This document shows, in pieces, positions 10,653 through 57,525 of a DNA stretch of 64,000 nucleotides. Position 1 is the stretch's first letter; the number at the start of each line of letters is the position of its first letter. The position numbers and the translations under genes are program-made. This stretch comes from a virus. The notes under the pieces are model-generated. The model was not told where the DNA came from and did no database searches. It worked only from the letters and a program-made list of their open reading frames with translations. Where the stretch lies: IMG/VR virus record IMGVR_UViG_3300018080_006015, positions 1 through 64,000 of that record; one strand, written 5' to 3'.

Positions 10653-13625
10653 ATGACGATTCGTAAAGATGTATCCATAATTCAAAACAGATGGCATGAT
10701 GCTCAAAGAGTAGATCGTACCGACATGGATGTAGAACAAGAGAAAAACACCCAAACAGAGGGATCAATTATTCAAAATCATTTTGGTTCTGGTGTATTGT
10801 TAGCTACACGAGAGCAAAGGGTTTTATTTGATTCTGATATGCCTGATGCTGAACAGGCTTCGTTTATTGCTGCTCATACATTTGATGGTCGTGGAATTCA
10901 TGTGCATCAACAACCATCTGATATAAACCTTGGAAATCAAATAGAAATAGAATTATCTGGTTCTAATGTTTTCGGTAGATTAAGTGTTAAAGTTGCTATT
11001 GTTGGTTTGGCTTTTGATGGAACGTTACAGCAAGATAAGTTTTATTTTTATAAGAATGGTTCTCAGGTTACTTCTAAACATTATATTCGTATTTTAGCGA
11101 TGTTTTTCAATGATTTTAAGGGTAATAACCAATGCTCTAGGACGAATGGTGGGCGCATTGTAGTTCGAGAAACAGCGTCATTTCAATTGTCTCGTGATGC
11201 TATTATGGTTGCTCAGGACGTAGAACCTGATTTGTTTTGGCGTGATTTTAAGGTAGCAGATCCTACTGTAGCACCCCCTAACCCGACAGTCATATTGTAT
11301 AATATGATTCAGGAAGCTATCGGATCCGAATATAGTGCAAATTCACTTGATATAACTACAACCGGACGGCAACCGGATCGAGAACTTGTACCTGGTGATG
11401 TTACTTCTCAAATTGGGCAAAAATTCCAAGCCACAACTGATAATATACAAAAGATTACATTATTATTGGGAATTAGAAAAGATGAAAACGCTACAGTTGA
11501 GCATTGGTTTGATTGGACTGGAGATTTGGTTATTAGCATTTATCCATTACAAACTACGGTTCAATGTCCAACGGCGATAGTTCCCGAATTGGCTATAGAT
11601 TTTGATCCCGATAGTGAGCCGTTAGTACAACTCACTTATGATAAAGAGGCGTTAGAAGATATTGGATATGTATTAACTGACGTATTACAACCTGTGGATT
11701 TTGTTTTTAGCGCTACGCAGGTGGGGTCAGGAGATACTAGCGAGGTTGTTCCTGGCAATTTTTACGCCATAACAGTGCGTAGAGCAGGTGCAGCTAATGA
11801 TGGCACGGTATTTATTGGCGTAGGTAATGACAGACTAGATGATGCTAGAACAACCGTATTTAGTGGTGTGTGGGTTGATGTGCCAGAAGAAGACATGTGG
11901 TTTCAAGTATGGACAGATGCGGCCAAAATTGCTGATGGTATGGGATATGATTTTGGAAATGGTATTCAATATTCTAAAACAGTTATAGATCCAGAAACTG
12001 GCGCAACTATTGATAATCAGATTAAGAACAAGTCAATGGCAGATACTGGTGAAAATGTTCTTAATATAGGTGTGTTACAGGCAATTACCGAAGAGAGCTT
12101 AACAATACAAAATGAACGCACTGGAAATGATGTTTTTTCTAGGAAACAATTTGTGCCTTCTTTTAGTTTTGTTGATGACGATGGATTAGCAGAACTTACG
12201 GATGTGTCAGAGCCATTGATTATAGGTTGTATGCGCGACACAAATCCAAAACAAAACCCAGAAATTACAGGAGAGTTGATTTTGCCGGGTCTTGTTAAGG
12301 GTGACACTTTCTGTGTTGTTAATCCGGGGCCCGATTTATTGTCAAATAATTTAATAGGTAGTAAATTATTGCCAAATTATCCATGTACAGAACCATATCG
12401 TATATTTAAGGTTGAATATTGTGTTGATGGTTATGGTGACGTTAATGGTGATGGGTATATTACAGAAGCAGATATAGCAGCAGCTGCGTCTTTAATTGGT
12501 GAGAGCATATATTCTAATTCTACCCAGCAAAAAATTATCGATGGATATTTTACAACATTAGAGGTTTTGCGAGCTGATGTTGACGGTGATGGATATATTA
12601 CAGCTCATGATGTTGATTTAATTACCCAATATGTTAATAAAGCGATAAATTCATTTCCTGTTGGAAGTACGTTTAATCACATGTGCTTTACAGTGCAACA
12701 AAGCGTTGGCCGTTATGATGGCTATTTTGATTGTGATGGGTATGTAAGACTAGATGGTTATTATGGAATTAATATAGTATCACCTGATTCATTAAGCCCA
12801 TATGAGTTAGTATATGATGGGTATTTAATGAGTCCGGTAATTGATATTGATCCTGTATTTTCCGCCGTCCCATTTATGGGGGTTACATACAAGGTTATTC
12901 CACAGCCATTTTGGCAAAAATATTTATTGACGCTTAGTAGTAATTCCAGACTTGTGCCGGCAGCTTTCACGGAGTCTGAATCTGTTACAAAATATTCTTG
13001 CGATAATCCGGCGGACTTTTTATGTGAAGAGAGGCCGAGTGCATTGCCAGTATGCGATCCGGGACGCAATGATTTCTTTGTTCCAGGTCATTTAATTATC
13101 GGTGACGGTCAAATATTAAAGCCCGATGGTAGTTTTCATAAGCAAGATATAGAAATAGGCACAATCATATTACAATTACCAGACAGTCCGTTGGAAGAGG
13201 TGTCATTAAATGTTTTTGAAAAATTTGTAGCTGATAGTAATAATACGGGATTTACTGTTGCTGGATATCCCGCAATGAAATATTCTGATTGCTCTACTGT
13301 ACAGCCAGAAGATTTGTTTTTAAACAAAGTTAAATTCAATGTAGCTATTCAAGCTATGGTTCCGGCCATTGATGGATATGACGACGGATATAGTGATGGA
13401 TATAGTGATGGATATGGTATAATTATTGACGATATTATTGGTGTTTATATGGACCATTCTACTGGAATATTAAAACTTACCGCAAAAGACATGTATGTAG
13501 ATAAGGTTTATAAATCGTTAGTAACAAAGATAGAAATAACTGTATATTTAAAGAAAGCTGGGTGGATTACTGGTAACTTTGTATTAGTTGAGCCAAGTGA
13601 AATAATTGGGCTATTATCAACTTAG
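10653..13625 (+). CDS. Tail/baseplate-associated protein with dockerin-like calcium repeats
   Basis: A 990-residue protein, 7 bases after the giant tail gene. The N-terminal third (IQNRWHDAQRVDRTDMDVEQ) has the look of a phage structural protein, and the middle is beta-rich. Residues about 590-665 hold two EF-hand-like loops, DVNGDGYITEAD and DVDGDGYITAHD, each followed by a helix, about 45 residues apart. This is the layout of a type I dockerin. Further DGY triplets follow, ending in a tandem block near residues 907-922. By position it is a tail or baseplate component. The dockerin loops probably bind calcium, but no cohesin partner is visible in the window. Confidence 0.65.
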   Translation: MTIRKDVSIIQNRWHDAQRVDRTDMDVEQEKNTQTEGSIIQNHFGSGVLLATREQRVLFDSDMPDAEQASFIAAHTFDGRGIHVHQQPSDINLGNQIEIELSGSNVFGRLSVKVAIVGLAFDGTLQQDKFYFYKNGSQVTSKHYIRILAMFFNDFKGNNQCSRTNGGRIVVRETASFQLSRDAIMVAQDVEPDLFWRDFKVADPTVAPPNPTVILYNMIQEAIGSEYSANSLDITTTGRQPDRELVPGDVTSQIGQKFQATTDNIQKITLLLGIRKDENATVEHWFDWTGDLVISIYPLQTTVQCPTAIVPELAIDFDPDSEPLVQLTYDKEALEDIGYVLTDVLQPVDFVFSATQVGSGDTSEVVPGNFYAITVRRAGAANDGTVFIGVGNDRLDDARTTVFSGVWVDVPEEDMWFQVWTDAAKIADGMGYDFGNGIQYSKTVIDPETGATIDNQIKNKSMADTGENVLNIGVLQAITEESLTIQNERTGNDVFSRKQFVPSFSFVDDDGLAELTDVSEPLIIGCMRDTNPKQNPEITGELILPGLVKGDTFCVVNPGPDLLSNNLIGSKLLPNYPCTEPYRIFKVEYCVDGYGDVNGDGYITEADIAAAASLIGESIYSNSTQQKIIDGYFTTLEVLRADVDGDGYITAHDVDLITQYVNKAINSFPVGSTFNHMCFTVQQSVGRYDGYFDCDGYVRLDGYYGINIVSPDSLSPYELVYDGYLMSPVIDIDPVFSAVPFMGVTYKVIPQPFWQKYLLTLSSNSRLVPAAFTESESVTKYSCDNPADFLCEERPSALPVCDPGRNDFFVPGHLIIGDGQILKPDGSFHKQDIEIGTIILQLPDSPLEEVSLNVFEKFVADSNNTGFTVAGYPAMKYSDCSTVQPEDLFLNKVKFNVAIQAMVPAIDGYDDGYSDGYSDGYGIIIDDIIGVYMDHSTGILKLTAKDMYVDKVYKSLVTKIEITVYLKKAGWITGNFVLVEPSEIIGLLST
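13371..13416 (+). repeat. Tandem DGY-coding repeat
   Basis: Near-identical 12-base units (gatggatatagt and variants) encode DGYDDGYSDGYSDGYG within the preceding structural gene. The two central units are identical, which suggests expansion by slippage. Similar DGY clusters occur around 7521-7590 in the gene before it. Confidence 0.7.
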
Positions 13626-41366: not shown

Positions 41367-42371
41367 ATGAAAACAGCGTGTATTACAGGGATAACTGGTC
41401 AAACTGGATCTTATTTGGCGGAACTATTATTAAACAAAGGATATAAAGTATATGGTCTTAATAGGAGAACGAGTACATTTAACACCAGTAGAATAGATCA
41501 TATTTATAAAGATCCTCATATATCAAAACAGTTGGAGTTAGTATATGGGGATATGTCTGATTATTCTTCGTTGGCAAGTTTTGTTGGAGATGCAAAGCCT
41601 GATATTTTCTTTAATCTTGCGGCCCAATCTCACGTGAGAGTTAGTTTTGATATTCCTGAATATACGATGGATATAGTTGCTACAGGTGCTTTGAGGTGTT
41701 TAGAGGCCATACGGAAAAATAGTCCAACAACAAGGTTTTTAAATGCCTCAACATCTGAATTGTTTGGAGATCAACCAGCTCCTCAGAATGAAAAAACACC
41801 GTTTAAATCACGATCACCTTATGCGTGTGCTAAATTGGCAGCTCATAGCGTGACGGTTAATTATAGAGAGGCTTATAATTTATTTGCGGTAAATAGCATA
41901 TCATTCAATCATGAATCTCCAAGAAGAACAGAGAATTTTGTTACACGCAAAATAACCAGGGCCGCAACAAGAATATATTTGGGATTACAAGAAAAGTTAT
42001 ACTTAGGTAATTTAGACTCGAAACGAGATTGGTCTGATGCGCGTGATGTTGTTAGGGGAATGTATAAAATTATTACCGCAAATGAACCCGATGATTTTTG
42101 TATAGCAACTGGTGAAACCCGTTCTGTTAAAGAATTTTTAGAAACGGTATTTTCTAAGCTTAATATGGATTGGAAGGATTATGTTGAGTTTGATCCAAGA
42201 TATTTGCGCCCAACAGAAGTTCCTGAACTATGTGGAGACGCATCAAAAATTAAGGAAACACTTGGGTGGCAACCGGAATATTCTTTTGATGATTTGGTAC
42301 AATCCATGATAGATCACGATCTTGATTTGGCATATAAAGAGCGAGTTACCGGGGAGGAAATAAAAATATGA
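41367..42371 (+). CDS. gmd: GDP-mannose 4,6-dehydratase
   Basis: A 334-residue short-chain-dehydrogenase-type enzyme. [18 protein letters not shown] is the NADP-binding GxxGxxG loop, [17 protein letters not shown] the family segment, [11 protein letters not shown] the catalytic Ser/Thr and Glu region, and YACAKLAAH the YxxxK pair. [18 protein letters not shown] is a GMD signature that sets it apart from RmlB. It converts GDP-D-mannose to GDP-4-keto-6-deoxy-D-mannose, the first step to GDP-L-fucose. AAAGGAG precedes the ATG, and its stop overlaps the next ATG (ATGA). The GDP-mannose must come from the host, because no enzyme making it is visible here. Confidence 0.95.
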
Positions 42372-42586
42372 AAATAAAAATAATTAGTGACGGAACAATA
42401 GAGGGCACAAAAGTCGTCAGCGCTAAAACTGGCGAAGAAATAGAGTCTGTTACTAAAATAGGTTGGATGGCTGAGTCCGGTGAAATATATTCAAGAGCTA
42501 TAATAGAAATAATAAATGTGCCTGTCGAGATAGAATCAGATGCAGAATTACAAATAAACGTTCCAATAAATGTGTCTGGAGAATAG
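42368..42586 (+). CDS. Small hypothetical beta-rich protein
   Basis: A 72-residue protein of alternating strand-like segments ([40 protein letters not shown]). There is no signal peptide. The second half resembles part of the following 147-residue protein, where LIINVIPNKVDIKGDATI stands in the same role. It starts by ATGA overlap with gmd and ends 2 bases before that next gene. The function is not known; co-transcription with gmd and fcl is likely, though such small proteins may be phage structural or regulatory passengers. Confidence 0.55.
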
Positions 42587-42588
42587 AT

Positions 42589-43032
42589 ATGGTAAATCCA
42601 AGCGAAAATATTAACTTATTAGATGTTATTGAAAATCGCGTTATTATGCCTGATGGAAATAGTATAAGCGGAATTAGTTTTTTGGAATTAGAGGTAAGTT
42701 CGGACGAATTATTACCATCATTAATAATAAATGTTATACCAAATAAGGTAGATATTAAGGGTGATGCTACGATAAAGCTTTTAGAATGGTCGGAAAAGGA
42801 TGAAAGATTCGAATTTCGTGGAAAAGAAAAGCAAACTAAAGTACACATATATAATGACAGTTTTAACGCTTCTAAAAGAGTTCCATCGTCTGCTGGTTAT
42901 ATTATAGAGGATATAGATAATGATGAAGTTATAGGGGCGTGTCAAAGAGTTAGAATAGAACAAACCTCTACATCAAAATGGATTGAAATCGAACAAATAG
43001 ATTTGAGTTCTTGTCCAGAGGAGCGAAAATGA
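42589..43032 (+). CDS. Hypothetical protein between gmd and fcl
   Basis: A 147-residue acidic, beta-rich protein without a recognised domain. Residues about 15-65 (NRVIMPDGNSISGISFLELE to INVIPNKVDIKGDATIKLL) look like a longer version of the preceding 72-residue protein. It ends with an ATGA overlap to fcl, whose GAGGAG site lies within this gene's last codons. It separates two enzymes of one pathway, which is odd. Function unknown. Confidence 0.55.
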   Translation: MVNPSENINLLDVIENRVIMPDGNSISGISFLELEVSSDELLPSLIINVIPNKVDIKGDATIKLLEWSEKDERFEFRGKEKQTKVHIYNDSFNASKRVPSSAGYIIEDIDNDEVIGACQRVRIEQTSTSKWIEIEQIDLSSCPEERK

Positions 43033-43979
43033 TCAGTGTTTTGTGTACAGGGGCAACTGGGTTTTTAGGAAAGCATGTTCAAGATACCTTTGAGCCATAT
43101 ATTGTAAATAATGATTATTTCGTTGCGTTTTTAGGCTCTAATGGTGGTCGTGGTGATTTGGCAAGTCCGGCGTTGGCTTATGATGTTTTTTCTCGTTATG
43201 AACCAGATGTGGTTGTTCATATGGCTGCTGTTTGTGGTGGTATTTTAGCTAATAAAAATGCCCCCGCTAAATTTCTATCTACCAATTTACAAATGGGTTT
43301 AAACATTTTTGAGCTGGCAGTACAGTTTAAAGTAAAATATGTGTATACGCTTGGTAGCGTGTGTAGTTATCCGAAATATTGTCCAGTACCATTTAAAGAA
43401 GATGATATTTGGAATGGTTATCCAGAAGAAACAAATGCCCCATATGGATTTGCTAAAAAGGGTTTGTTGATGCTGGGTAACACATATCGTGAGCAGTATG
43501 GGGTTAGAGGCGCGCATCTTATACCTGTTAATTTATATGGACCTTATGATCATTTTGATTTAGTAAACAGTCACGTAATTCCCGCTCTTATTAATAAGTT
43601 TACAGATGCAATACAAAATAATAAAGATACGGTATATTGTTGGGGTACCGGGGCTGCGTCTAGAGAATTTTTATATGCAGGAGATGCTGCCAAGGCTATT
43701 GTTCAGGCTGTTACAACAGGGCTTGATACAGAATTGCCAATTAATATTGGAACGGGTGATGAGATAACAATTAAAGATTTGGCATATTTAATTGCTAAAC
43801 TTACAGGATTTGAGGGTAATATAGAGTTTACTGGTGAGGTTTCAGATGGCCAGCCAAAACGCAGATTGGATGTGTCTCGCGCAAAAGAGATTATGGGATT
43901 TGAAGCTAAAACAAAATTATTAGAGGGGTTGGTAAGGACAATCTCTTGGTACCAGGATAATTTGGAGAAAACAAAATGA
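43029..43979 (+). CDS. fcl: GDP-L-fucose synthase
   Basis: A 316-residue epimerase-reductase. CTGATGFLGKHV is the NADP loop, VVVHMAAVCGGILANKNAPA the family segment, LGSVCSYPKYCPVPFKED the catalytic Ser/Cys region and APYGFAKKGLLML the YxxxK motif, all as in GDP-fucose synthase (Fcl/WcaG). It epimerises C3 and C5 of GDP-4-keto-6-deoxymannose and reduces it to GDP-L-fucose. I place the start at ATG 43029, seven bases after GAGGAG and overlapping the upstream stop by ATGA; a TTG at 43011 is less likely. Product and substrate connect it directly to gmd and to the GT10/GT11 genes. Confidence 0.95.
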   Translation: MISVLCTGATGFLGKHVQDTFEPYIVNNDYFVAFLGSNGGRGDLASPALAYDVFSRYEPDVVVHMAAVCGGILANKNAPAKFLSTNLQMGLNIFELAVQFKVKYVYTLGSVCSYPKYCPVPFKEDDIWNGYPEETNAPYGFAKKGLLMLGNTYREQYGVRGAHLIPVNLYGPYDHFDLVNSHVIPALINKFTDAIQNNKDTVYCWGTGAASREFLYAGDAAKAIVQAVTTGLDTELPINIGTGDEITIKDLAYLIAKLTGFEGNIEFTGEVSDGQPKRRLDVSRAKEIMGFEAKTKLLEGLVRTISWYQDNLEKTK

Positions 43980-44950
43980 CTAATAATAAAAAGAAAGACA
44001 ACAATAAAAAAACATCAGATTATACACAAAAAGAAAAAGATACTAAACTAGAAGTGGTAGAAGATGTTATGCGCGACCCTGAAAAAATTCAGGAACAAAT
44101 TGAAGCTTTGCAGAAGATTGGTCAGGATTATACTGATGAAATTTTAAGTGGTAAGGTTATTGAAAGTACAGAAGACGTAGTTACACATCCGGTAGAATAT
44201 AAAGATCCGAAAGATTCTAAAAAGCTTGAGCAACCATTAGGCGTAGCAATAGATTTAGCTATTGAAATGCGAAATAAAAATATGTTGGATGATGATGCAT
44301 TTATTAGTCAAATAAAGGAAATAAGAAGATGGGATGATGATTTGATTTCTGGGTTTCGTAATAATATAATGAGTGATGATGCTTTTATAGATAACACTTC
44401 TAATTCCGATGATACTGATGTTGTGCCCCCTGTTAGTTCTAGTAAATTATCTGAGGCCAACGCATTAATGATTGGTTTTGATAAGAAATACGCAATGTCT
44501 AAGGCGAATTATATTTATTCTAGAACAGTAATGAAACAATACGAAAAAGACTTGCGCAGTAAGGGTGAGTTTAGCATGAAAGAACAATATTATAAAGCCA
44601 CTTGTGAGTTTTTGGCGGCAGAGCGTAATTATAAGATTTATGATAAAGTATATAATATTGTTGTAAAAAACTTAGATGAATTGTCGATTAATTTAGAAGA
44701 CGTTACTCTGCTAATAGAGAAAAACAATCAGGATCCTGATTTGTCGCCTGAGACATTATCTGCATTATTTGCACACTTAATGCCAACAGAAGAGCAGTTA
44801 AAAAAAGAAAAAGAGCGTCGTAATAGAGTTGTCGTAACTGATGACTTATTTGTAAGATATGAAAAGGAAAAACAAAAAAGTAAAAAAGCAATAGAAAAAG
44901 ACACTGATGTTTCAAGCGCTTTTAATAAAACATGCTCACAGAAAGAATAA
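43976..44950 (+). CDS. Hypothetical charged protein, 324 residues
   Basis: A very polar protein: a Lys/Asn-rich N-terminus (NNKKKDNNKKTSDYTQKEKD), an acidic middle (DDDAFISQIKEIRRWDDD; SDDTDVVPP), and a helical C-terminal half with YKATCEFLAAERNYKIYDKV. There is no signal, membrane segment or known motif. It overlaps the end of fcl by ATGA and precedes the RmlB-like gene. Low complexity and charge suggest a structural or scaffold-type phage protein, but nothing in the sequence proves it. Confidence 0.55.
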   Translation: MTNNKKKDNNKKTSDYTQKEKDTKLEVVEDVMRDPEKIQEQIEALQKIGQDYTDEILSGKVIESTEDVVTHPVEYKDPKDSKKLEQPLGVAIDLAIEMRNKNMLDDDAFISQIKEIRRWDDDLISGFRNNIMSDDAFIDNTSNSDDTDVVPPVSSSKLSEANALMIGFDKKYAMSKANYIYSRTVMKQYEKDLRSKGEFSMKEQYYKATCEFLAAERNYKIYDKVYNIVVKNLDELSINLEDVTLLIEKNNQDPDLSPETLSALFAHLMPTEEQLKKEKERRNRVVVTDDLFVRYEKEKQKSKKAIEKDTDVSSAFNKTCSQKE

Positions 44951-44953
44951 AAT

Positions 44954-45916
44954 ATGAGTAAAAAGAAAATATTAGTAACAGGATCTTGCGGATTTATATT
45001 TTCAAATTTCGTAAGACATGTCTTATATCATCAAAAAGAGTATGATATTGCCAGTATAGATAAGGTTGTTGCTCCAAATAGCCTTCACAATATTTACGCT
45101 AACAAGGGTCACATTTTTTATGTTGGAGATGTGGCTGATCCTCATTTTATAGATGTTGTATTTCAAATAGAGCGTCCAGATATTGTTGTGCATGGTGCGG
45201 CAGAGACCCATGTAGACAATTCAATTAGTGGTGCGGTTCCTTTTATTAAGTCAAATGTTTTAGGAACTCAAGTTATTGTTGATGCATGTGTCAAATATAA
45301 TGTAGAGCGTTTGATTTATATTTCAACTGACGAAATTTATGGGCAGTTATCTAGTGAGTCAGATAAGGCATGGTCTGAAACTTCTCCACTAGATCCAAGA
45401 AACCCATATTCTGCCTCAAAAGCAGCGGGAGAGCTTATTGTACAAGCTGCAAATAAAACCCATAACTTGCAATATAATATTACAAGATGTTGTAATAATT
45501 TTGGACCACGACAATCTGCAGATAAGTTAATGCCAAAGATAATTAACAACATCATACACGGGGAAAAGGTGCCAATATATGGTCAGGGAAAGCAGTTAAG
45601 AGAGTGGATTCACGTTTTCGATAATTGTGAGGCCATTATGACAATTTTGCGCTCCTCTCCACCAAATGAAATATACAACATATCGTCTGGGTATGAGTTT
45701 TCTAATGTGGAAGTGTTCCAAGAGATTTGTAATGTTATGGAAAAGGGTTATGATTTGTTAAACTTTATTAAAGATCCCAGACCAGGACATGATTTTAGAT
45801 ATTCCGTGGACTCTTCTAAGATAAGAAGTCTGGGGTGGAAACCAAAATTTAGGTTTCGAGAAGGGTTAAAACAGTGTGCGGCCTGGTATATAAATAATCA
45901 GTGGATTTTAAGGTAA
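44954..45916 (+). CDS. NDP-sugar 4,6-dehydratase, RmlB-like
   Basis: A 320-residue SDR enzyme: KKILVTGSCGFIFSNFVRHV is the NAD loop (the third Gly of the usual GxxGxxG is Ser here), HGAAETHVDNSI is typical of RmlB, YISTDEIYGQLSSES carries the Thr-Asp-Glu catalytic set, and PYSASKAAGELIV gives YxxxK. RYSVDSSKIRSLGWKP is the close of this family. It removes water from an NDP-hexose (dTDP-glucose in RmlB itself) to give a 4-keto-6-deoxy sugar, which the DegT enzyme could aminate. The exact nucleotide is not certain. Confidence 0.85.
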   Translation: MSKKKILVTGSCGFIFSNFVRHVLYHQKEYDIASIDKVVAPNSLHNIYANKGHIFYVGDVADPHFIDVVFQIERPDIVVHGAAETHVDNSISGAVPFIKSNVLGTQVIVDACVKYNVERLIYISTDEIYGQLSSESDKAWSETSPLDPRNPYSASKAAGELIVQAANKTHNLQYNITRCCNNFGPRQSADKLMPKIINNIIHGEKVPIYGQGKQLREWIHVFDNCEAIMTILRSSPPNEIYNISSGYEFSNVEVFQEICNVMEKGYDLLNFIKDPRPGHDFRYSVDSSKIRSLGWKPKFRFREGLKQCAAWYINNQWILR

Positions 45917-46007
45917 TATTGTCAAAATCATTGCATAAAATAACATATATGTAATGCAAAATGATATAGTGTAAGTTTTTGTAATTATTTAGAAAATAGG
46001 AAGAATC

Positions 46008-47372
46008 ATGTCAGTGAAAACAGATGTAGTTGAAGGTAAAAAAGAAGAAATTATAGATGATATTTCTGAGCATGTAGTTACGTCTGCGCCGGAGGTGGAT
46101 GATGATAAATTACAGGCTTTAAAAGAACAATTTGCATCTAAGAATAAGGAACAGGATAAGATGCCCCCTAGAATATTAGAAGAAAAGACAAGAAGTATAA
46201 AGTTTGGTATAATCGGTAGCGGGCAGGCTGGATCGCGTATTGCTGAAACGTTTCATTCATTGGGTTATGAAGCAATTGCAATAAATACCGCCACACAAGA
46301 TTTAGAGCATATAAACATTCCCCAGTCGAATAAGTTGCTTCTGGATTATGGTCTTGGTGGTGCGAGTAAAGATAGAAGTTTAGGAAATGAGGCGGCAGAA
46401 ACACATAAAGACGCAATTTATGCGTTGATTAAAGATAAGTTAGCTGATACTCAAGTGTATGTATTTTGTACGTCTTTGGGGGGCGGTAGCGGTAGTGGTT
46501 CTGTAAATACCATTATCGATATTTTAGCTTCTATTGGAAATCCTATTGTTGTTATTACTGTATTGCCAATGACCAATGAAGATGCGCAAACAAAAAGTAA
46601 CGCACTTGAGTCTTTGTCAGAGCTTGCTGTTAAAGCTAAAGAAAAAATTATTCATAACCTAATTGTTGCCGACAATGCAAAGATTGAATCAATTTTTAGT
46701 GATGTTGGCCAAATGGATTTTTATAATGTTAGCAATAAGGCTATTGTTGAACCATTAGATGTGTTTAATACGTATTCCTCTCAGCCCTCCTCAATTAAAG
46801 GTTTGGATCCAATGGAATTTTTGAAGGTTTTGATTGATGGCGGTGGTTTGAGTTTATATGGCTGTATGAATGTGGCTAATTATGAGGCAGATACAGCTAT
46901 AGCTGAAGCTATAATTACTAATTTGGATTCAGGATTACTTGCCAGCGGGTTTGATCTAAAACAGACTCGTTATGTTGGGGCCATGGTTTTGGCAAACAAG
47001 GATGTTTGGAATAAAATCCCGAGTTCTAGTATAAATTATGCCATGAGTATGGTGCAAGATACCGCTGGAACTCCACTTGGTGTGTTTAGAGGAATTTATA
47101 CGGCAGATATCGAGGAAGATGTTGTGAAGGTTTATTCGTTTTTTAGTGGTTTAGCACTTCCCGAGCCTCGAATCGAAGAGCTTAAAAAGGAAGTTTCATT
47201 ACATCGAACGACTCTTAAAACAAAAGATGTTTCTAGAGATTTAAAGCTTAATATAGATACTGGCGAAAGTGAAACTGTGTCTGCTGTCGAAAAAATTAAA
47301 CAAAAGATTGAAAAGAAAAAGTCAAAATTTGGTCAGTTTACACAAAAGCTAGTAGATAAACGTAATAAATAA
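46008..47372 (+). CDS. FtsZ/tubulin-like GTPase
   Basis: A 454-residue protein. Residues 1-60 are an acidic extension. KFGIIGSGQAGSRIAETF (about 65-82) is the first Rossmann loop of the FtsZ/tubulin fold, AIAINTATQDLEHI follows as in FtsZ, and LGGGSGSG at residues 157-164 is the tubulin signature loop that binds the GTP phosphates. The C-terminal tail is Lys-rich and coiled-coil-like (EKIKQKIEKKKSKFGQFTQK). Phage relatives (PhuZ, TubZ) form filaments that position virions or DNA. The T7 loop that triggers hydrolysis in FtsZ is not obvious here. AGGAAG precedes the ATG. Function as a filament is inferred. Confidence 0.8.
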   Translation: MSVKTDVVEGKKEEIIDDISEHVVTSAPEVDDDKLQALKEQFASKNKEQDKMPPRILEEKTRSIKFGIIGSGQAGSRIAETFHSLGYEAIAINTATQDLEHINIPQSNKLLLDYGLGGASKDRSLGNEAAETHKDAIYALIKDKLADTQVYVFCTSLGGGSGSGSVNTIIDILASIGNPIVVITVLPMTNEDAQTKSNALESLSELAVKAKEKIIHNLIVADNAKIESIFSDVGQMDFYNVSNKAIVEPLDVFNTYSSQPSSIKGLDPMEFLKVLIDGGGLSLYGCMNVANYEADTAIAEAIITNLDSGLLASGFDLKQTRYVGAMVLANKDVWNKIPSSSINYAMSMVQDTAGTPLGVFRGIYTADIEEDVVKVYSFFSGLALPEPRIEELKKEVSLHRTTLKTKDVSRDLKLNIDTGESETVSAVEKIKQKIEKKKSKFGQFTQKLVDKRNK

Positions 47373-48847
47373 TGGCTAAAATTGTAGTAAAAGACAATAT
47401 CTGTTACATAAAAGAAGAAACAGATATTAATTTTGTGCGCATATTAGATGATGAATTGTCCTTTAGAGTGCAGGGGGCGGAACATACCCGAGCATATAAA
47501 GGCTATTATGTTGGTGGTCAATTTATTCGATGGGATGGAGTTCATCGTATCTTGTCGAATAATTTAACTTTTCCGTATGGATTATTATCTAGAGTTTGTG
47601 AATTATATGAGCGATATGGTAAAGAGATAACAATTCATGAAGAGGAGCTTGAAAGAACTCCAATAAACTCAATAGAAATACTTGGCGCATTAAAGAGAAT
47701 TAATAAATATCCATATCCATATCAGCTAGAAGTTTTAGATACCGTAAAAGAAAGTTATAATGGCATTATACGTATGGCAACCGGATCAGGAAAGTCGATC
47801 ATTGCCGCTTTAATTACCGCATATTTTGGAAAAAAGTCTGTTATTTACGTTATTGGAAAAGATCTTTTGCATCAAACTAAAAGATTTTTTGACGAAATAT
47901 TTGATGATCCCGTGGGCATTATTGGTGATGGCTTATGCGATATTCATGATATTAATATTGCTAGCATATGGACAGTTGGACAGGCATTAGGGCTTAAAAG
48001 CAACAAAATTATTGATGATGTATCAGATGGTGAAAAGAAACTTGATGAGACGAAATATAAATACATCAGAGATATGATGAAAACAAGCAAGGTGCATATT
48101 TTTGACGAGTGTCATTTGGCCGCTTGTGATACAATACAAGAAATATCAAGAAACATAAATCCCGAAAATGTTTATGGAATGAGTGCATCACCATGGAGAG
48201 ATGATGGGGCTGACCTATTAATTGAATGTGTGTTTGGTGGAAAGATTGTAGATATTTCTGCTTCTTATTTGATAAGAAACGGATATTTAGTTAAACCGAT
48301 AATAAAGTTTTTAGAAGTTCCAAAATATCATGAATCATTAAAGAAAAGCTATCCAACAATCTATAAGCATTATGTAATAGAGAATGATATACGTAATAGA
48401 AAAGTCATAATGGGAGCTATTAAACTTGTCGAGCAAGGATATTCTCCATTAGTGTCATATACTCGCATATCACATGGCAAGAAATTATATAAAGAAATTT
48501 CTAAACATATTCCTTGTGTATTATTAAGTGGTAAAGATTCTTCTGATACTAGAATAAGAGCCAAAGATGATTTAGAGAGTGGTAAAATTAAATGTATTTT
48601 AGCATCAACAATATTTGATATAGGTGTTGATTTGCCTTCTTTATCTGGCTTGGTTATTGCCGGTGGTGGAAAATCATCTGTGAGGTCATTGCAGAGAATT
48701 GGAAGGGTGATCCGAAAATTTCCCGGCAAAACACAATCGGCAATTATTGATTTTTTGGATAATGCGCATTTTTTGAGAAAACATTCTCTTGCTAGAAAGA
48801 AAATTTATTCCATTGAAGATGAATTTCATATTATATGGCCGAAATAA
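47372..48847 (+). CDS. UvsW-like superfamily 2 DNA helicase
   Basis: A 491-residue helicase. Walker A RMATGSGKSII lies at about residues 133-143, the DEAH-type box IFDECHLAA near 245, motif III GMSASPWRDD, and motif VI RIGRVIRKFPGK near the end. The N-terminal 110 residues are a UvsW-like DNA-binding part ending in YPYPYQLEVLDTV, the Q-motif. T4 UvsW unwinds R-loops and remodels recombination forks. The ATG shares its A with the stop of the tubulin gene (TAATG). It opens a run of replication-type genes. Confidence 0.85.
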   Translation: MAKIVVKDNICYIKEETDINFVRILDDELSFRVQGAEHTRAYKGYYVGGQFIRWDGVHRILSNNLTFPYGLLSRVCELYERYGKEITIHEEELERTPINSIEILGALKRINKYPYPYQLEVLDTVKESYNGIIRMATGSGKSIIAALITAYFGKKSVIYVIGKDLLHQTKRFFDEIFDDPVGIIGDGLCDIHDINIASIWTVGQALGLKSNKIIDDVSDGEKKLDETKYKYIRDMMKTSKVHIFDECHLAACDTIQEISRNINPENVYGMSASPWRDDGADLLIECVFGGKIVDISASYLIRNGYLVKPIIKFLEVPKYHESLKKSYPTIYKHYVIENDIRNRKVIMGAIKLVEQGYSPLVSYTRISHGKKLYKEISKHIPCVLLSGKDSSDTRIRAKDDLESGKIKCILASTIFDIGVDLPSLSGLVIAGGGKSSVRSLQRIGRVIRKFPGKTQSAIIDFLDNAHFLRKHSLARKKIYSIEDEFHIIWPK

Positions 48848-48860
48848 CGGAGAAATTATT

Positions 48861-49466
48861 ATGATTGATTTGAACGAACAAAGGCGAGAGGCTATTCGCT
48901 TTCTTTCTAAACCCTGGCAAAGATTTTTTAATAGATTCGAAGAGATAGAATCATTAAAAGTTTCTCAGTGGAAACCAATTCATTTGTTGGGATATTTTGA
49001 TAAGAGATATCGTGAACATTATAATAAAAATTTTGCATATAGTTGTAAAAAGGCACCAATGAAATGTACTGAGATAGTTTTAATTAAAAAGATGTGTGCT
49101 ATGTTGGCTACCACGAATATGAGAACTGTCAAAGATTATATTGATTGGGTTTTTGATTGTAAAATTATTCCGCAAAAAATGAAAATAAGAACTTTAGCTT
49201 TTTTTGGTACTCCAGGGTTGGGGAATGAATTCTATGAATATAAATCTGAGCATGATAAAATAAAGCGTACGACAGATTTACCAAAAAAGTTTAAAGACAT
49301 AGGTAATAAATTGGGTTTTCCAATTAATACTTTTGGTGATTTGGCGTTTGCAAAAATGGCACTTGATAAGTATGATAATGATGAGATTCGTGCTCCATAT
49401 AAGGCGCTTTTTGACCAATTGTATTCGGTTGGATTTGAGTTTGAGATGATAAAGGACTTAAAATGA
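48861..49466 (+). CDS. Hypothetical protein, 201 residues
   Basis: A mainly helical, basic protein. FLSKPWQRFFNRFEEIESL opens it, followed by CTEIVLIKKMCAMLAT and VKDYIDWVFDCKIIPQ; no domain is recognised. The start is ATG 48861, preceded by GGAGA; an in-frame start at 48789 would overlap the helicase gene. It ends by ATGA overlap with the zinc-ribbon protein gene. By context it could assist replication or recombination, but that is only its neighbourhood. Confidence 0.6.
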   Translation: MIDLNEQRREAIRFLSKPWQRFFNRFEEIESLKVSQWKPIHLLGYFDKRYREHYNKNFAYSCKKAPMKCTEIVLIKKMCAMLATTNMRTVKDYIDWVFDCKIIPQKMKIRTLAFFGTPGLGNEFYEYKSEHDKIKRTTDLPKKFKDIGNKLGFPINTFGDLAFAKMALDKYDNDEIRAPYKALFDQLYSVGFEFEMIKDLK

Positions 49467-49741: not shown

Positions 49742-50127
49742 ATTCTATTATAGGAAAAAAGGCTAGAATAACATTTCAAAATGGAACTACAGCAGAGGGT
49801 GTTATTATTGATTGGTCGGATGAACAGTCAATATTGAAGTCCGAAGGTGGCGAAGATTTGTTGATAATAAATAATACACGAAATAATGTTGTGTTTATTC
49901 ATGTGTTCTTTGATAGTCATAATGTGTTTGGCGTCGATGGGGTTATAGAGCCAGATCCTCCTGTATTAGATCATAATGAAACAAATTGGTCCAAACGCAC
50001 CAATAAATTATCTCAAGCAAAAGCTAGGCAAGTACAAGATCTTAAAAGACAGGTGGCCATGCATTTAAAGCGTGGTCCTAGGGCAATAACGGGTAATAAT
50101 TATGTCTTTCCGAATTTCCAGAAGTGA
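49738..50127 (+). CDS. Hypothetical protein with small beta-barrel-like N-terminus
   Basis: A 129-residue protein. Residues 3-60 alternate strands (GKKARITFQNGTTAEGVIID; EDLLIINNTRNNVVFIHVFF) as in Sm/SH3-like barrels, while the C-terminal part is basic and helical (SQAKARQVQDLKRQVAMHL). A nucleic-acid or protein contact is possible; the family is not known. Its 3' end overlaps the loader gene by 26 bases and its start overlaps the zinc-ribbon gene by ATGA. Confidence 0.55.
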   Translation: MNSIIGKKARITFQNGTTAEGVIIDWSDEQSILKSEGGEDLLIINNTRNNVVFIHVFFDSHNVFGVDGVIEPDPPVLDHNETNWSKRTNKLSQAKARQVQDLKRQVAMHLKRGPRAITGNNYVFPNFQK

Positions 50128-50833
50128 TTCATTAATAACTATTCCTCAAAGAAAAGTCGTTGAAGCTCTTGGCAACACATTAAAAGATTGTCCAACATGT
50201 AGTGAGGCCAACGCGCAGCTCGATACGGCTTGTGAAAAATGTAGATTTATCAATACTGCTTTGCAACGATATGCCGCGAGTAATATTCCTATTAGATATT
50301 GGTCTTTAGATATGAACCGAGATTTTAAGGGTAACAAGGCATTATTAGATAAATACAATGAAATTGTTGATGATTTGGAGGGGGCATATAGTCGCGGAAT
50401 TTGTTTGTGTTTTGCAGGCTCACATGGGGTTGGAAAAACACTAATAACAACTAACATTTTAAAAAGAGCGTGCGAAAAAGGTTATAATTGCTTGTATGTT
50501 ACTCTTACAGATATTGTTGAAACAGCAATAGCTAGCCAGTATTCAGATAAAAACATTATTCGCAGAGAATTATTAATGGTTGATTTTTTGGTAATTGATG
50601 AGTTTGATCCTCGATATATGGCAACTGATTCTGCGTCTGATTTGTTTGGAAGAACTTTAGAAAATATATTTCGCACAAGATCACAGAATTGTTTGCCTGT
50701 TTTTATGTGTACAAATTCTCCAAATGTTATTGATTCTTTTGTGGGTTCGATTAAGCTTAGTATTGAGAGTTTGATGAATTATGTGGACATCGTTCCTGTG
50801 GTTGGTTCGGATTTTAGAAAGCATATGAAGTAA
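50102..50833 (+). CDS. DnaC/IstB-like helicase-loader ATPase
   Basis: A 243-residue AAA+ protein. Residues 30-47 hold a CPTC...CEKC zinc finger. GSHGVGKTLITTNIL at about 106-120 is Walker A, and DFLVIDEFDPRYM near 160-173 Walker B. MCTNSPNVIDSF is a sensor-I-like stretch (TNS). The length and order fit DnaC/DnaI/IstB loaders. It would open the replicative helicase ring and place it on DNA; the DnaB-like gene follows after 11 bases, which supports the role. An N-terminal zinc finger is also known in DnaI-like loaders. Confidence 0.85.
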   Translation: MSFRISRSDSLITIPQRKVVEALGNTLKDCPTCSEANAQLDTACEKCRFINTALQRYAASNIPIRYWSLDMNRDFKGNKALLDKYNEIVDDLEGAYSRGICLCFAGSHGVGKTLITTNILKRACEKGYNCLYVTLTDIVETAIASQYSDKNIIRRELLMVDFLVIDEFDPRYMATDSASDLFGRTLENIFRTRSQNCLPVFMCTNSPNVIDSFVGSIKLSIESLMNYVDIVPVVGSDFRKHMK

Positions 50834-50844
50834 GTATGGTGTAA

Positions 50845-52380
50845 ATGATGACTGATATGCATGATATTGCTAGTTTTGATGTTGAAGCTTCAGAAGATGA
50901 TGATATTCGCGTAGAAAGGCAGGATCTTAGACTGCTAAAAGCAATTGTTACAGATAAAACGGTAGCTAGAGAGTTCGTCAGTACATTTGATTATACTTTA
51001 TTTATGTATGATGCCAAGCCATTTGCTAAGTTGGCTATGGATCATATAAAAGCATATAAATCGCCACCAACTAGACGTACAATGCTAGAGTCTGCCTCGG
51101 GCCCTAATGAGCTAAAGGAAAAATTAAATCTTATTTGGGATCAATTAGATGAGGCTGAGTTTAATAGAGATGAATTCGAATATGATCTTGAAAAAGTAAA
51201 ATCTAGATATACAAAAACAGAAATATTAAGCCTTAAAGATAGTTTAGATAATTTTGATTTTGATAACGCCAATCATGAGCGCATTATCAGACAAATACGC
51301 AATAAAGTAGACCTGGCAGATACTGTAAGGCGGGGTCAAAGGCAAGTATATGTTCAAAAAACTATGAAGGATTATATGCCCGAGTTTTTTGAAGAATATA
51401 AGAGAAAGGCTGAGGATCCTGACATTGATGCGGGTATTAATACTGGTTATTCATATTTAGACTATGCTACTGGTGGTTTGCGAAACGCTCAAATGTTGAT
51501 AATTGCAGCAGAATCAAGCGCTGGAAAATCAATGTTACTGAATAATATGGCTATTCAGATTTGGATGCAGAAAAACACCGTATATACAAACAAAGAACAT
51601 TTTGGTAAGGGCTATAATATATTGTATTTTTCTTTAGAGATGCCATTCAAAGCCTGTGTAAGAAGATCTATTGCTAGATTGTCTGAACTTCCGATTTATG
51701 GCATTAGAGATTGTAATATTAAATCAGAATATATTAAAAACTTAAATCGCGCAGTTAATTTTATTAATCAATATCCGTATCATTTTGAGGTTGTTGATAT
51801 TCCTCGCGGTGTTACTGTTGAGCAAATTGAGGCGCGATATGACGAAGCTGTTTCCAATGGTCGTAAGCCTGATGTTGTGGTTGTAGATTATTTGGGATTA
51901 ATGGAGTGTAATGATATAGATGGCGATGATTGGCTTAGATTAGGATATATTTCTGCAAAGTTACATGAATTTGCTCGTGCTTATGATACAATTGTTTTAA
52001 CGGCGGTGCAGCTAAATAGACCCGGAAAAACAATTAAAGACTCTGCCGATCTTATTGGTATGCATAGAATTGGGCGCTCCTCATTAATTATTCATCATGC
52101 GGATATTGGTATACAGATTGAATCGAGAAAAGGTGAAAAAAACTTTCCAGACATGGTGTATCATATTATTAAAAATAGAGACGGTGAGCTTGGAAAACAT
52201 GTATTAAGTAAAAAGTTTTATATGGCTACTATTAAAGATATGGATGAGCCGTATAAACCACCAGAAGGCGATGGTATAGGCTCTTTTATTACAGCTAATG
52301 CCGAAGAAGATATTTCTACGGCACTTCAAAAATATGATTGGTATGGTAAAAAAGAGGATGACGATGGATCCGAAAAATAA
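50845..52380 (+). CDS. DnaB-like replicative DNA helicase
   Basis: A 511-residue protein of the RecA-fold SF4 helicases. The N-terminal 180 residues are helical (the loader- and primase-contact part). NTGYSYLDYATGGLRNAQM leads into Walker A AAESSAGKSMLLNNM at about residue 225, and VVVVDYLGLMECNDIDGDDW is Walker B, with the later RIGRSSLIIHHADIGIQIE strand as in DnaB. It drives fork unwinding 5' to 3'. It starts at ATG 50845 (or the next ATG, one codon on). A zinc finger is absent. The last codons overlap the next gene. Confidence 0.9.
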   Translation: MMTDMHDIASFDVEASEDDDIRVERQDLRLLKAIVTDKTVAREFVSTFDYTLFMYDAKPFAKLAMDHIKAYKSPPTRRTMLESASGPNELKEKLNLIWDQLDEAEFNRDEFEYDLEKVKSRYTKTEILSLKDSLDNFDFDNANHERIIRQIRNKVDLADTVRRGQRQVYVQKTMKDYMPEFFEEYKRKAEDPDIDAGINTGYSYLDYATGGLRNAQMLIIAAESSAGKSMLLNNMAIQIWMQKNTVYTNKEHFGKGYNILYFSLEMPFKACVRRSIARLSELPIYGIRDCNIKSEYIKNLNRAVNFINQYPYHFEVVDIPRGVTVEQIEARYDEAVSNGRKPDVVVVDYLGLMECNDIDGDDWLRLGYISAKLHEFARAYDTIVLTAVQLNRPGKTIKDSADLIGMHRIGRSSLIIHHADIGIQIESRKGEKNFPDMVYHIIKNRDGELGKHVLSKKFYMATIKDMDEPYKPPEGDGIGSFITANAEEDISTALQKYDWYGKKEDDDGSEK

Positions 52381-53700: not shown

Positions 53701-53721
53701 ATAAGCTTAAGGATGATAAGA

Positions 53722-56700
53722 ATGGGAGATAAGACATATACGTACGACGAAGCTATGGCGCGTTCTACAGAATATTTTCATGGCGACTCTTTTGTTGCCA
53801 GTGTATTTGTTGATAAATATGCGCTAAAAGATAGTTATGATAATATTTATGAAATAAGTCCTGTTGATATGCATAAAAGACTCGCCACGGAGTTTGCAAG
53901 AATAGATTCGGATAAATACGGGTTAGATTTTAATGAAAGATATGAGGTATATTTTTCTGCATTAGATAAATTCGCGAGAATTGTTCCAAGTGGTGGTGTA
54001 ATGTCTGCCGTTGGTAATAATTTTCAGTATATGTCTGCTTCCAATTGCGTTGTTGTTGAGCCTCCTAAGGACAGTATTGGTGGAATTTTTGATACTGCCA
54101 AAGCGCTTGCGCAATTATATAAGAGACGTGCAGGGGTCGGAACTGATTTATCTACACTAAGACCTGAAAAAGCTGCAGTAACTAATGCTGCTAAAACGTC
54201 TAGTGGTGCATGGTCTTTTGCTGATTTGTATTCAAGTGTTACTGGAATGATCTGCCAGTCAGGTCGCAGAGGAGCGCTTCTATTATCATTAGATGTTCAT
54301 CATCCTGATGTTTTACAATTTGCACGTATGAAATCTGATCGAACCAAAGTTACAAATGCTAATGTTTCTGTGCGTTTAAGTAATGAGTTTTTAAATGCTG
54401 TAGAAAAAAACATCGAATACGAACAACGCTGGCCGTGCGATGGAAAACCAAAAATATCTAAAATGGTAGATGCAAGAACAGTGTGGAAAGAAATTGCCAC
54501 GAGGGCAGCAGAAGATGGCGATCCTGGAATAATGTTTTGGGATAATGTCTGTGATTATCTACCAGCTCACTGTTATGAACAATTTCGCACAGTTAGCAGC
54601 AATCCCTGTGGTGAAATTAATTTAAGCAGTTATGATTCTTGTCGCTTAATATCAATTAATTTAACAGCTTATGTTAAAAATCCGTTTAAAGATAATGCAT
54701 CATTTGATTTTAAATCATTTTCCGAGGATGTAAAAATCGGAATGCAAATGATTGATAATTTGATTGATCTTGAGTTGGAATTAATTGATCGTATAAAAAC
54801 TATTTGTGACGAAGGGTTTGAAACCGAAATTTGGAATAAGCTTCAAAAATCTGGAGAATTGGGTCGTAGAACAGGCCTAGGAACTCATGGCTTGGCAGAT
54901 GCGCTGGTTCAACTTGGTATTAAATATGACTCAGATGAAGCTTTAAATGCTGTAGATAAAATTTATAAGGCATTAAGAGATAACGCATATCAGATGTCTG
55001 TAGATTTGGCAAAAGTTCGTGGTCCGTTTCCTATTTTTGACTGGGAAAAAGAAAAAAATAACAAATTTATTAAACGATTACCCAGGAAAATTCTTAAGGA
55101 TATGGAAAAATATGGTAGAAGAAATATTTCTTTATTGACGCAGGCGCCTACTGGATCTGTTGCTATAGTTAGTAAGCTTGGCGGATTTGATGCATATAAT
55201 ATTTCATCAGGAATTGAGCCAATATTTCAGATTTCCTATATAAGAAAACGAAAAGTAGATGCTACCAGTGATAATATTGATCATTATGATGAGCAGGGTA
55301 ATGCGTGGAAAAAATATAAAGTATTTCACTCTAATGCAAAGTGTTATTTGGACATGTTTGGTATAAAAGATGATGCTTTACCAGATTATTTTGTAACATC
55401 AGATAATATTGATTGGAAAAAACGTGTAGAAATTCAAGGTGTAGAACAAAAATACATTTGTCATAGTATTAGTTCATGTCTATCCGTTGGTAATCATTTG
55501 GTACATACATCGGATGGTCTATCTTATATAGAAGATATTGTAGGGAAAAGATCAGAGAAGGGGTTTTATAATTTAGCTGAAAGCACAAATACTATTAATC
55601 ACGAAAACCAGCAGGCTAATATTTCTGAGGGCTTTTATAATGGCAAAAGTTATTGTTATCAGATTTCTTTTACTGGTGGCAGGAAAATTATAGGAACTCC
55701 AAATCATAAATTACTTATATTAGGAAATAATCTTGGGACTTTTCGATGGGCTCAGTTGGAGGATATAAAGCCTGGCGATTTTGTAGTTGGAAGAATTGGC
55801 CTGGGTTGTTTTGGGAATAGTCAAAAACATTTTTCTACTACATTGGGGAATTTCAAATCTAGTATTTCTGGAGGAAATACAAAAAAGGTTAAATTACCCA
55901 ATAGAATGAGTAAAAAATTAGCTAGGTTACTTGGGTATTTGACTTCTGACGGATCTGTATCTGATAATGGTATTCGGTTATCACAGTTGCGTAATAATGT
56001 GGTGGATGATTTTATAAATATCATAAAAGATATATTTGGTATTGAATGTTATGTGTGTCCAGACAATCGTGTGGAAGGATTGGTTTCTGTTCAGGTTAAT
56101 AGTCGTATTGTTCGTGATTTTGTGCGTTACTTAGGAATAAACGGTAAAGCTCATGAAAAAACTGTTCCCAGATCTATTTTTAAATGCGCTGGTAGACAGC
56201 AAACAGCTGAATTTATTAAGGGATTAACGTTGGATGGATTTGTGTCATGTAAAAAATTAGGTATAATGACATCTTCTAGTAAGCAGTTGTGTGCGGAGAT
56301 TCAAATTATTTTAGATCAGTTTGGAATTGATTCTGGTATTGTCAAGGTAAATAAAGAAGGAACAATAAGAGAGTTTCCCGGTGGTAATAAATATGCTACA
56401 AAGGATGCGTGGACTGTTTATTGTGGCATGAATGAATCTCAAAAATTTATAGAAAAGATAGGCTTTGCTGAAGACCGAAAAATAGATGAGGCGACAAAAA
56501 AACTTAGAGGACCATCTAGGAAATCTTTGGTAGGTCATATTCCTGATTTGAATGTTAGAAATGTATTTAGAAAGAATATTCTTCCGTCAATAAAATCAAA
56601 CAAATTGTATGAAATGTTTTATTCAATGACATGTTATAATAAACAAGGTATGGATATTACAAGAGATACATTGTTAATGTTATGTGATATGGGTTTAGAT

Positions 56701-57525
56701 GTGTCAAAATATAAATCTGAAATATTTGATGAGACTTTTGTTTTTAGAAAAGTTGTTAGCTCTGATTTTGTGTGGGAAAAAGATACGTATGATTTATCAG
56801 TTGAACATGGCCGCTCTTATGTTGTTAATAATTTTGTATCTCATAATACAATAAATTTGCCGAGAAACACAAAACCACAGGTAATTGCTGATATTTATTG
56901 GTATGCGTGGAAAAATAATTTAAAAGGAATTACCGTGTATGTAGAGGGAACAAAAGATGGTGTTCTTGTTCCAGATGTTGATGAATGTGGAAGGCCATTG
57001 AAGATTATTCCCTCAAATGCTCCTAAAAGGCCCAAAGAGTTAAATTGTGAAATTCATTACGCAACAATTAAGGGAACAAAATGGGCAATTTTGATAGGAT
57101 TACTGCATAATTACCCATATGAGATGTTCATGGGGAAAGCGGAAAAATTCGATATTCCCAATAAATTCAAGGAAGCAAAAATTGTAAAAATTAAAAAGGG
57201 AGTATATAATTTATTAACAAATAGCAATGAATTGTTGGTAGGTGATATAGTTAAAACATCTGACAATGATGATGGAGCATGGACATCTAGAGTTATGTCC
57301 ATGGCATTAAGACATGGTATTCCTGTTGATTATTTGGCAGATCAATTATCAAAGGATGGTAGTGTTGTAGATATAAATAATGTATTAGCCAGGCTTTTAA
57401 GAAGATATATAAAGGTAAGAGATAAGAGTCGCCAGGAAACATGTCCGCAATGTGGTAGTCCTGAACTTATTTATTCCGAAGGTTGTAAAAAGTGTGGTGG
57501 TTGTGGTTGGACAGGATGTGGCTAA
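53722..57525 (+). CDS. nrdJ: Class II (B12-dependent) ribonucleotide reductase with intein
   Basis: A 1267-residue precursor; about 810 remain after removal of the intein (residues 586-1042). NPCGEINL at 294-301 supplies the active-site Asn, Cys and Glu; NCVVVEP has the early redox Cys, and QAPTGSVAIVS the substrate-phosphate loop. After the intein, SSTINLPRNT resumes and the C-terminus ends in a double CxxC ribbon (CPQC, CKKCGGC), a NrdJ feature. The enzyme makes deoxynucleotides with adenosylcobalamin and without oxygen or a small subunit. I choose ATG 53722, 8 bases after AAGGA; ATG 53713 is in frame but lies against that site. Cobalamin must come from the host. Confidence 0.9.
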   Translation: MGDKTYTYDEAMARSTEYFHGDSFVASVFVDKYALKDSYDNIYEISPVDMHKRLATEFARIDSDKYGLDFNERYEVYFSALDKFARIVPSGGVMSAVGNNFQYMSASNCVVVEPPKDSIGGIFDTAKALAQLYKRRAGVGTDLSTLRPEKAAVTNAAKTSSGAWSFADLYSSVTGMICQSGRRGALLLSLDVHHPDVLQFARMKSDRTKVTNANVSVRLSNEFLNAVEKNIEYEQRWPCDGKPKISKMVDARTVWKEIATRAAEDGDPGIMFWDNVCDYLPAHCYEQFRTVSSNPCGEINLSSYDSCRLISINLTAYVKNPFKDNASFDFKSFSEDVKIGMQMIDNLIDLELELIDRIKTICDEGFETEIWNKLQKSGELGRRTGLGTHGLADALVQLGIKYDSDEALNAVDKIYKALRDNAYQMSVDLAKVRGPFPIFDWEKEKNNKFIKRLPRKILKDMEKYGRRNISLLTQAPTGSVAIVSKLGGFDAYNISSGIEPIFQISYIRKRKVDATSDNIDHYDEQGNAWKKYKVFHSNAKCYLDMFGIKDDALPDYFVTSDNIDWKKRVEIQGVEQKYICHSISSCLSVGNHLVHTSDGLSYIEDIVGKRSEKGFYNLAESTNTINHENQQANISEGFYNGKSYCYQISFTGGRKIIGTPNHKLLILGNNLGTFRWAQLEDIKPGDFVVGRIGLGCFGNSQKHFSTTLGNFKSSISGGNTKKVKLPNRMSKKLARLLGYLTSDGSVSDNGIRLSQLRNNVVDDFINIIKDIFGIECYVCPDNRVEGLVSVQVNSRIVRDFVRYLGINGKAHEKTVPRSIFKCAGRQQTAEFIKGLTLDGFVSCKKLGIMTSSSKQLCAEIQIILDQFGIDSGIVKVNKEGTIREFPGGNKYATKDAWTVYCGMNESQKFIEKIGFAEDRKIDEATKKLRGPSRKSLVGHIPDLNVRNVFRKNILPSIKSNKLYEMFYSMTCYNKQGMDITRDTLLMLCDMGLDVSKYKSEIFDETFVFRKVVSSDFVWEKDTYDLSVEHGRSYVVNNFVSHNTINLPRNTKPQVIADIYWYAWKNNLKGITVYVEGTKDGVLVPDVDECGRPLKIIPSNAPKRPKELNCEIHYATIKGTKWAILIGLLHNYPYEMFMGKAEKFDIPNKFKEAKIVKIKKGVYNLLTNSNELLVGDIVKTSDNDDGAWTSRVMSMALRHGIPVDYLADQLSKDGSVVDINNVLARLLRRYIKVRDKSRQETCPQCGSPELIYSEGCKKCGGCGWTGCG
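55477..56847 (+). mobile_element. Intein with LAGLIDADG endonuclease domain in nrdJ
   Basis: This 457-codon in-frame insertion lies between SISS and TINLP of the reductase. It starts with Cys (CLSVGNHLVHTSDG, block A), has block B GTPNHKLL, endonuclease motifs ARLLGYLTSDGSVSD and EFIKGLTLDGFVS, and block F/G YDLSVEHGRSYVVNNF followed by VSHN and the +1 Thr. The terminal His-Asn and the +1 nucleophile are the standard splicing residues, so it should splice itself out. Without it the host protein reads straight across. The DOD endonuclease would spread it to intein-free alleles. Confidence 0.9.

Follow-up and report, generated by a model that had tools for sequence, protein, structure and literature searches.

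The gene at positions 46008 to 47372 of the window encodes a TubZ-like GTPase of the tubulin superfamily, and this tubulin belongs to the core components that an uncultured clade of huge tailed phages has inherited vertically. By the window we mean the whole 64,000-nucleotide stretch under analysis, i.e. positions 1 to 64,000 of an IMG/VR virus record whose length is 119,629 bp and whose remaining 55.6 kb were also taken in. We propose, with a probability of about one half, that the protein forms a GTP-dependent cytomotive filament of TubZ-like architecture, which would position the phage DNA or the replication site during lytic growth.

The gene and the parts of its product are given below; conservation refers to an alignment of 51 members of the family, all of them non-truncated and intein-free.

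46008..47372, + strand: gene of the TubZ-like tubulin-superfamily GTPase (ATG start, 454 aa; called on Pfam, fold and relatives)
46008..46193, + strand: N-terminal extension, residues 1-62 (present in 51/51 relatives, with 37-86 aa)
46215..46235, + strand: T1 loop GSGQAGS, residues 70-76, GTP phosphate binding (G70, G72 and G75 invariant, n=51)
46479..46499, + strand: T4 tubulin signature GGGSGSG, residues 158-164 (GGG[ST]G[SA]G in 51/51)
46671..46688, + strand: T6 base-binding loop DNAKIE, residues 222-227 (D222 and N223 invariant, n=51)
46803..46817, + strand: T7 catalytic loop LDPME, residues 266-270 (D267 in 51/51; at residue 270, E occurs 43 times and D 8 times)
47280..47369, + strand: basic C-terminal tail, residues 425-454, with the peptide S-x-F-G-K ... 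D-[RK]-R (conserved, n=51)

In the 454-aa protein, the Pfam family Tubulin matches residues 68-229 (E=1.2e-16) and the family TubZ-like_C (PF22453) matches residues 261-393 (E=4.5e-9), both above the curated cut-off; among the aligned relatives the former is found in 51/51 and the latter in 45/51. These matches, together with the fold comparison reported below (Z 39.5), bear out a preliminary description made from the letters of the DNA, which had recognised a tubulin-superfamily protein by the motif LGGGSGSG (this is the T4 loop, 158-164) and by a "first Rossmann loop" (this is T1, G-S-G-Q-A-G, residues 70-75). In filaments of tubulin and FtsZ, a GTPase site becomes complete through the T7 loop of the adjacent subunit. 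All the GTP-binding motifs and both T7-loop acids are intact across the 51 members of the family. Of the polymerising surfaces whose loss that description had envisaged, the catalytic T7 acids are kept in 51/51. The gene is under purifying selection, with a dN/dS of 0.02-0.06 between those pairs of close relatives for which dS could be estimated.

We built an AF2 model of the monomer from 51 family sequences (pLDDT 75, pTM 0.70). It displays a complete tubulin fold with a long C-terminal helix (386-413), then a second helix (426-446) in a tail where confidence is low, while the N-terminal extension is disordered or helical. The preliminary description had spoken of a 60-residue acidic extension and of a basic coiled tail. 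As to the extension, 62 residues do precede the core, and an extension of 37-86 aa occurs in 51/51 members, but acidity is confined to residues 1-31 (family mean charge -5.7), and a helix predicted for residues 32-62 is basic (+4.9). As to the tail, it is basic indeed, with a net charge of +5 to +12 in 51/51 members and with S439, D450 and R452 invariant; the word "coiled" is weakly supported by the two helices of the model.

Among solved structures, the best fold match of the AF2 model is TubZ-Ba, with a Z of 39.5 and an rmsd of 2.5 over 343 residues, and the next ones are TubZ-Bt (Z 39.2), CetZ2 (36.0), c-st TubZ (32.6) and bacterial FtsZ (about 31-32). A profile search of the PDB gave TubZ-Ba at 2e-29, TubZ-Bt at 2e-19, FtsZ at 4e-18 and CetZ2 at 6e-18. 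The opinion that the sequence is closer to FtsZ must therefore be abandoned, TubZ-Ba coming before FtsZ by profile as well as by fold. The nearest known family is plasmid TubZ, by sequence and by fold, with weak support in the tree. In these comparisons, CetZ was represented by fold and profile only, and the TubZ of the clostridial phage c-st and of the Bacillus virulence plasmid by their solved structures only.

Relatives were collected by scanning the viral contigs of IMG/VR with a three-sequence alignment. They are encoded at no fewer than 108 places, and the best 80 of these at least 108 loci were used; over the best 80 aligned, identity is 38-65%. Contigs of more than 200 kb carry 20 of these best 80, the largest having 480,838 bp. 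The huge genome assumed in the preliminary description is thus seen in relatives, while the source record itself is a fragment of 119,629 bp. Among 50,697 phage records the sole match was gp138 of Bacillus phage G (26% identity over 76%). The entry A0A6J5RW92 (BFVD; uncultured Caudovirales phage) matches over its full length at 57% identity; its annotation, "FtsZ Cell division GTPase", was given by similarity only, and judging from its sequence it belongs to our family, as an uncharacterised database entry. Cellular genomes mostly returned FtsZ patterns, with one weak match (28%) among the matches listed. The best plasmid match is a TubZ-like protein of Pontibacillus sp. ALD_SL1 (L088), whose 898-kb plasmid NZ_CP062975 bears this protein and an FtsZ on the same element; there the TubZ-like gene adjoins ssb and clpX, and no TubR is adjacent. 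Each of the 13 clade records searched (13/13) has one tubulin gene. Terminase matches in 7/15 records (six clade records and phage G, several matches being below the cut-off) are in keeping with tailed phages; the T4-type major capsid family PF07068 matched in none of the 15 records and is hence uninformative. In the literature that we covered, which excludes a 2025 survey of chimallin/phuz phages, no published description of the family was found.

A tree was computed with FtsZ, PhuZ and plasmid TubZ as references, CetZ being absent from it. The family forms a single clade with a support of 98/98, or of 97/99 once two long rows were removed, and because of these values we regard it as a distinct branch, which the preliminary description had suggested as a possibility. 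FtsZ and PhuZ each form one clade as well (100/99 for FtsZ), and gp138 of phage G clusters with plasmid TubZ (100/99). The family joins TubZ at 91/70 in the first tree and at 85/86 after removal of the two long rows, the value 85/86 not being starred. In the AU test neither the grouping of the family with PhuZ (p=0.385) nor that with FtsZ (p=0.112) is rejected; its grouping with phage G alone is rejected (p=0.025). The analysis thus supports a distinct branch, which at its deepest level may be allied with TubZ, with PhuZ or with FtsZ.

A recent copy of a host FtsZ had also been considered in the preliminary description. This origin is ruled out, because the family lies outside the clade that FtsZ forms (100/99).

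The surroundings of the gene, with the frequency of each neighbour among the best 80 relatives, are the following.

44954..45916, + strand: NAD-dependent sugar-nucleotide epimerase/dehydratase (Pfam Epimerase 1.5e-57; upstream in 77 of the best 80)
45917..46007, + strand: gap of 91 bp before the tubulin gene (no TubR gene, no iteron array)
47372..48847, + strand: DNA helicase (PHROG_16, E=7e-67; 1-base overlap with the tubulin stop; downstream in 68 of the best 80)
48789..49466, + strand: conserved protein of no known function (59 of the best 80; no PHROG or Pfam match)
50102..50833, + strand: DnaC-like helicase loader (PHROG_50, E=2e-18; 59 of the best 80)
50845..52380, + strand: DnaB-like replicative helicase (PHROG_19, E=1e-56; 57 of the best 80)

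In the relatives, the tubulin start often falls within about 25 nt of the epimerase stop, and most of those loci of the best 80 which miss a neighbour are short contigs. The tubulin distances track those of DnaB (r=0.88), of the DnaC-like loader (r=0.92) and of the epimerase (r=0.87), with a Mantel p of 0.001. From the constant neighbourhood and the matching distances, we therefore concluded that the tubulin gene belongs to the core of the replication cluster and has been inherited vertically. The gene closest to it is that of a sugar-nucleotide enzyme, and a shared neighbourhood alone is no proof of joint function. Scans for promoters and terminators around the tubulin gene gave nothing better than shuffled sequences did.

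Several other features of this DNA deserve mention. The epimerase ends a run of sugar-nucleotide genes (window 41367-45916: a GDP-mannose dehydratase and two epimerases); this run and the glycosyltransferases found elsewhere in the window point to a phage-coded sugar modification. Beside the replication cluster, at positions 64929-74666 and 83558-99517 of the record, lie two giant ORFs, one of 3245 aa and the other of 5319 aa. Near the baseplate genes, a 990-aa ORF (window 10653-13625) has a dockerin type I domain, which is unusual for the virion region of a phage.

In two relatives (L061:8366-11137 and L064:8330-11134), the tubulin gene is split by an intein, of 470 and 469 aa respectively. 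The two inteins are 49% identical and are inserted exactly after the GQAG of the T1 loop; in both, C comes first, HN last, and S is the next residue after the intein. The intein of L061 matches the family Intein_splicing and the endonuclease family LAGLIDADG. Inteins are often placed within essential motifs of important genes, and this is why their presence in the T1 loop fits a core role of the tubulin. Such alleles would make GTP binding, and probably polymerisation too, dependent on protein splicing. Another intein lies at about residues 605-1045 of the large-subunit ORF of a ribonucleotide reductase (window 53713-57525, 1270 aa; Intein_splicing 9e-13).

How might the protein act? GTP-bound subunits would stack head to tail, the GTP site of each being made complete by the T7 loop (D267, E270) of its neighbour, and the stacking would give a filament that is polar and dynamic; TubZ filaments have 2-4 strands, and those of PhuZ have 3 or 5. 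The basic C-terminal peptide, perhaps along with the N-terminal extension, would reach off the filament and bind a cargo, by analogy with the tails of TubZ, which bind partners and shape filaments (PMC5322520). As the tubulin gene lies in a cluster of replication helicases, we infer as the likeliest cargo either the phage DNA or the replication machinery, which the filament would position during lytic growth. The conserved end peptide, the T7 acids and the 51 aligned members offer a handle for testing what the filament carries.

A partition system of the TubRZ kind is defined by the TubR partner, a winged-helix adaptor encoded in the same operon, with tubC iterons near tubR. One could imagine that the tubulin is a partition motor of the TubZ type: the phage genome would persist like a plasmid, as a prophage (pseudolysogeny), and the TubR-like adaptor and the centromere would be either diverged or distant. 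In favour of this idea, TubZ comes closest to our family in sequence as well as in fold and is joined to it in the tree at the unstarred 85/86; moreover, the tails of TubZ are known to recruit TubR and other partners (PMC5322520, PMC3678025). However, no TubR-like gene lies beside the tubulin gene in the window or in the relatives. The search was made with a TubR profile drawn from the genes upstream of six plasmid TubZ (L089-L094), where a gene of 90-108 aa sits directly upstream, in some cases with weak winged-helix matches. Although phage G was excluded from the training, this profile finds its gp137 at 2.9e-6, yet it finds nothing adjoining the tubulin gene in the 13 clade records; two weak matches (0.003 and 0.05) appear in clade records some 37 kb (approximately) from the tubulin gene, inside longer frames. 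Neither the 91-bp gap nor the vicinity of the tubulin gene contains an iteron array or a centromere, the only repeats there being at chance level, and there is no tyrosine integrase in the 13 clade records (the bacterial controls were positive in 14/14), which is consistent with a lytic life. We consider such a partition motor unlikely.

TubZ and TubR belong to plasmid-like prophages, and PhuZ to nucleus-forming phages, which typically have chimallin and a multisubunit RNA polymerase. A PhuZ-like spindle would centre a proteinaceous phage nucleus and carry capsids, the shell protein having diverged too much to be recognised; it would agree with the common superfamily, with the huge tailed phages, with the single copy of the gene and with the AU test (p=0.385 for PhuZ with the family). 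However, chimallin was found in none of the 13 clade records, either with the Pfam family or with a profile of 5 rows, while phiKZ was positive and Kodama was positive even though it is outside the profile. This test is of limited sensitivity, because the profile also missed the PhuZ phages Aphrodite1 and Miami. No multisubunit RNA polymerase was found in the 13 records either, a protein which is weakly detected in phiKZ itself (7e-4, below the cut-off). The C-terminal domain of PhuZ, PF22334 (TubZ_C_2), is recognised in phiKZ gp39 at 1.7e-37 and has no match in the window protein at E<=10, nor in any of the 51 relatives at E<=0.001. Moreover the tail end is basic, against the acidic knuckle of PhuZ (PMC3678025). 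Such a spindle is thus quite improbable, and the link to PhuZ and the phage nucleus drawn in the preliminary description is not supported, PhuZ being distant. A host-takeover protein which would poison or replace the FtsZ ring, and so block division, seems to us very improbable: the fold is FtsZ-like (Z about 31) and the extensions at both ends might serve to bind division proteins, but identity to FtsZ is about 20%, the gene is located in the replication cluster, and the full GTPase site is strongly constrained, which is not what one would expect of a decoy. We thus retain the cytomotive filament as our main reading.

The known system which comes closest is the TubZ of Bacillus plasmids (TubZ-Ba/RepX, 4ei7; TubZ-Bt, 2xka and 3m89), which serves type III plasmid partition. 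The match extends over the entire core, with the long C-terminal helix (H11 in TubZ) included; the T2 motif NT-x-x-QD and the T6 motif DNAK are those of TubZ-Ba (DNAKL in TubZ-Ba), and there is a TubZ-type C-terminal domain, with the long helix 386-413 and a tail beyond it. Unlike plasmid TubZ, to which identity is about 23%, the family adds the 62-aa N-terminal extension and the D-[RK]-R end peptide, and it sits in huge-phage replication clusters with no adjoining TubR or iterons. Because no TubR adjoins it, with a profile that does find gp137, and because iterons are missing, we do not file it as a member of TubRZC: the tubulin works like TubZ at most in part. Bacillus phage G (498 kb) likewise has a single tubulin, gp138, but this one has no N-terminal extension and has the TubR-like gp137 directly upstream. 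In phage G itself, gp137 (L003:14692-14988) and gp138 make up an unannotated partition pair of the TubRZ type.

With the PhuZ of Chimalliviridae (phiKZ gp39, 201phi2-1 gp59) the family shares its occurrence as a phage tubulin in large tailed phages, the GTPase fold and a C-terminal helix, but it is far from it in sequence (201phi2-1 PhuZ, E=0.006), and phiKZ PhuZ has an acidic knuckle and no significant N-terminal extension (PMC3678025). With FtsZ and CetZ it has in common the tubulin/FtsZ fold and a similarity mostly limited to the GTPase domain; from bacterial FtsZ it differs by an identity of about 20%, a fold Z of about 31-32 and a separate clade. Phage tubulins have been divided into two groups, TubZ and PhuZ (PMC3678025, PMC7950403), and tubulin homologues of the PhuZ type, without further classes, have been reported in huge phages (PMC7162821). 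We assign our family to neither known phage-tubulin system, TubRZ or PhuZ. It may tentatively be seen as a third class of phage cytoskeleton, i.e. a replication-cluster tubulin which would organise DNA without a chimallin shell and without TubR and a centromere, the N-terminal extension and the D-[RK]-R peptide serving as a cargo hook. The existence of a large clade of huge phages whose tubulin fits neither of the two groups and is fixed in the replication cluster suggests that the control of phage DNA by a cytoskeleton extends beyond the case of the phage nucleus.
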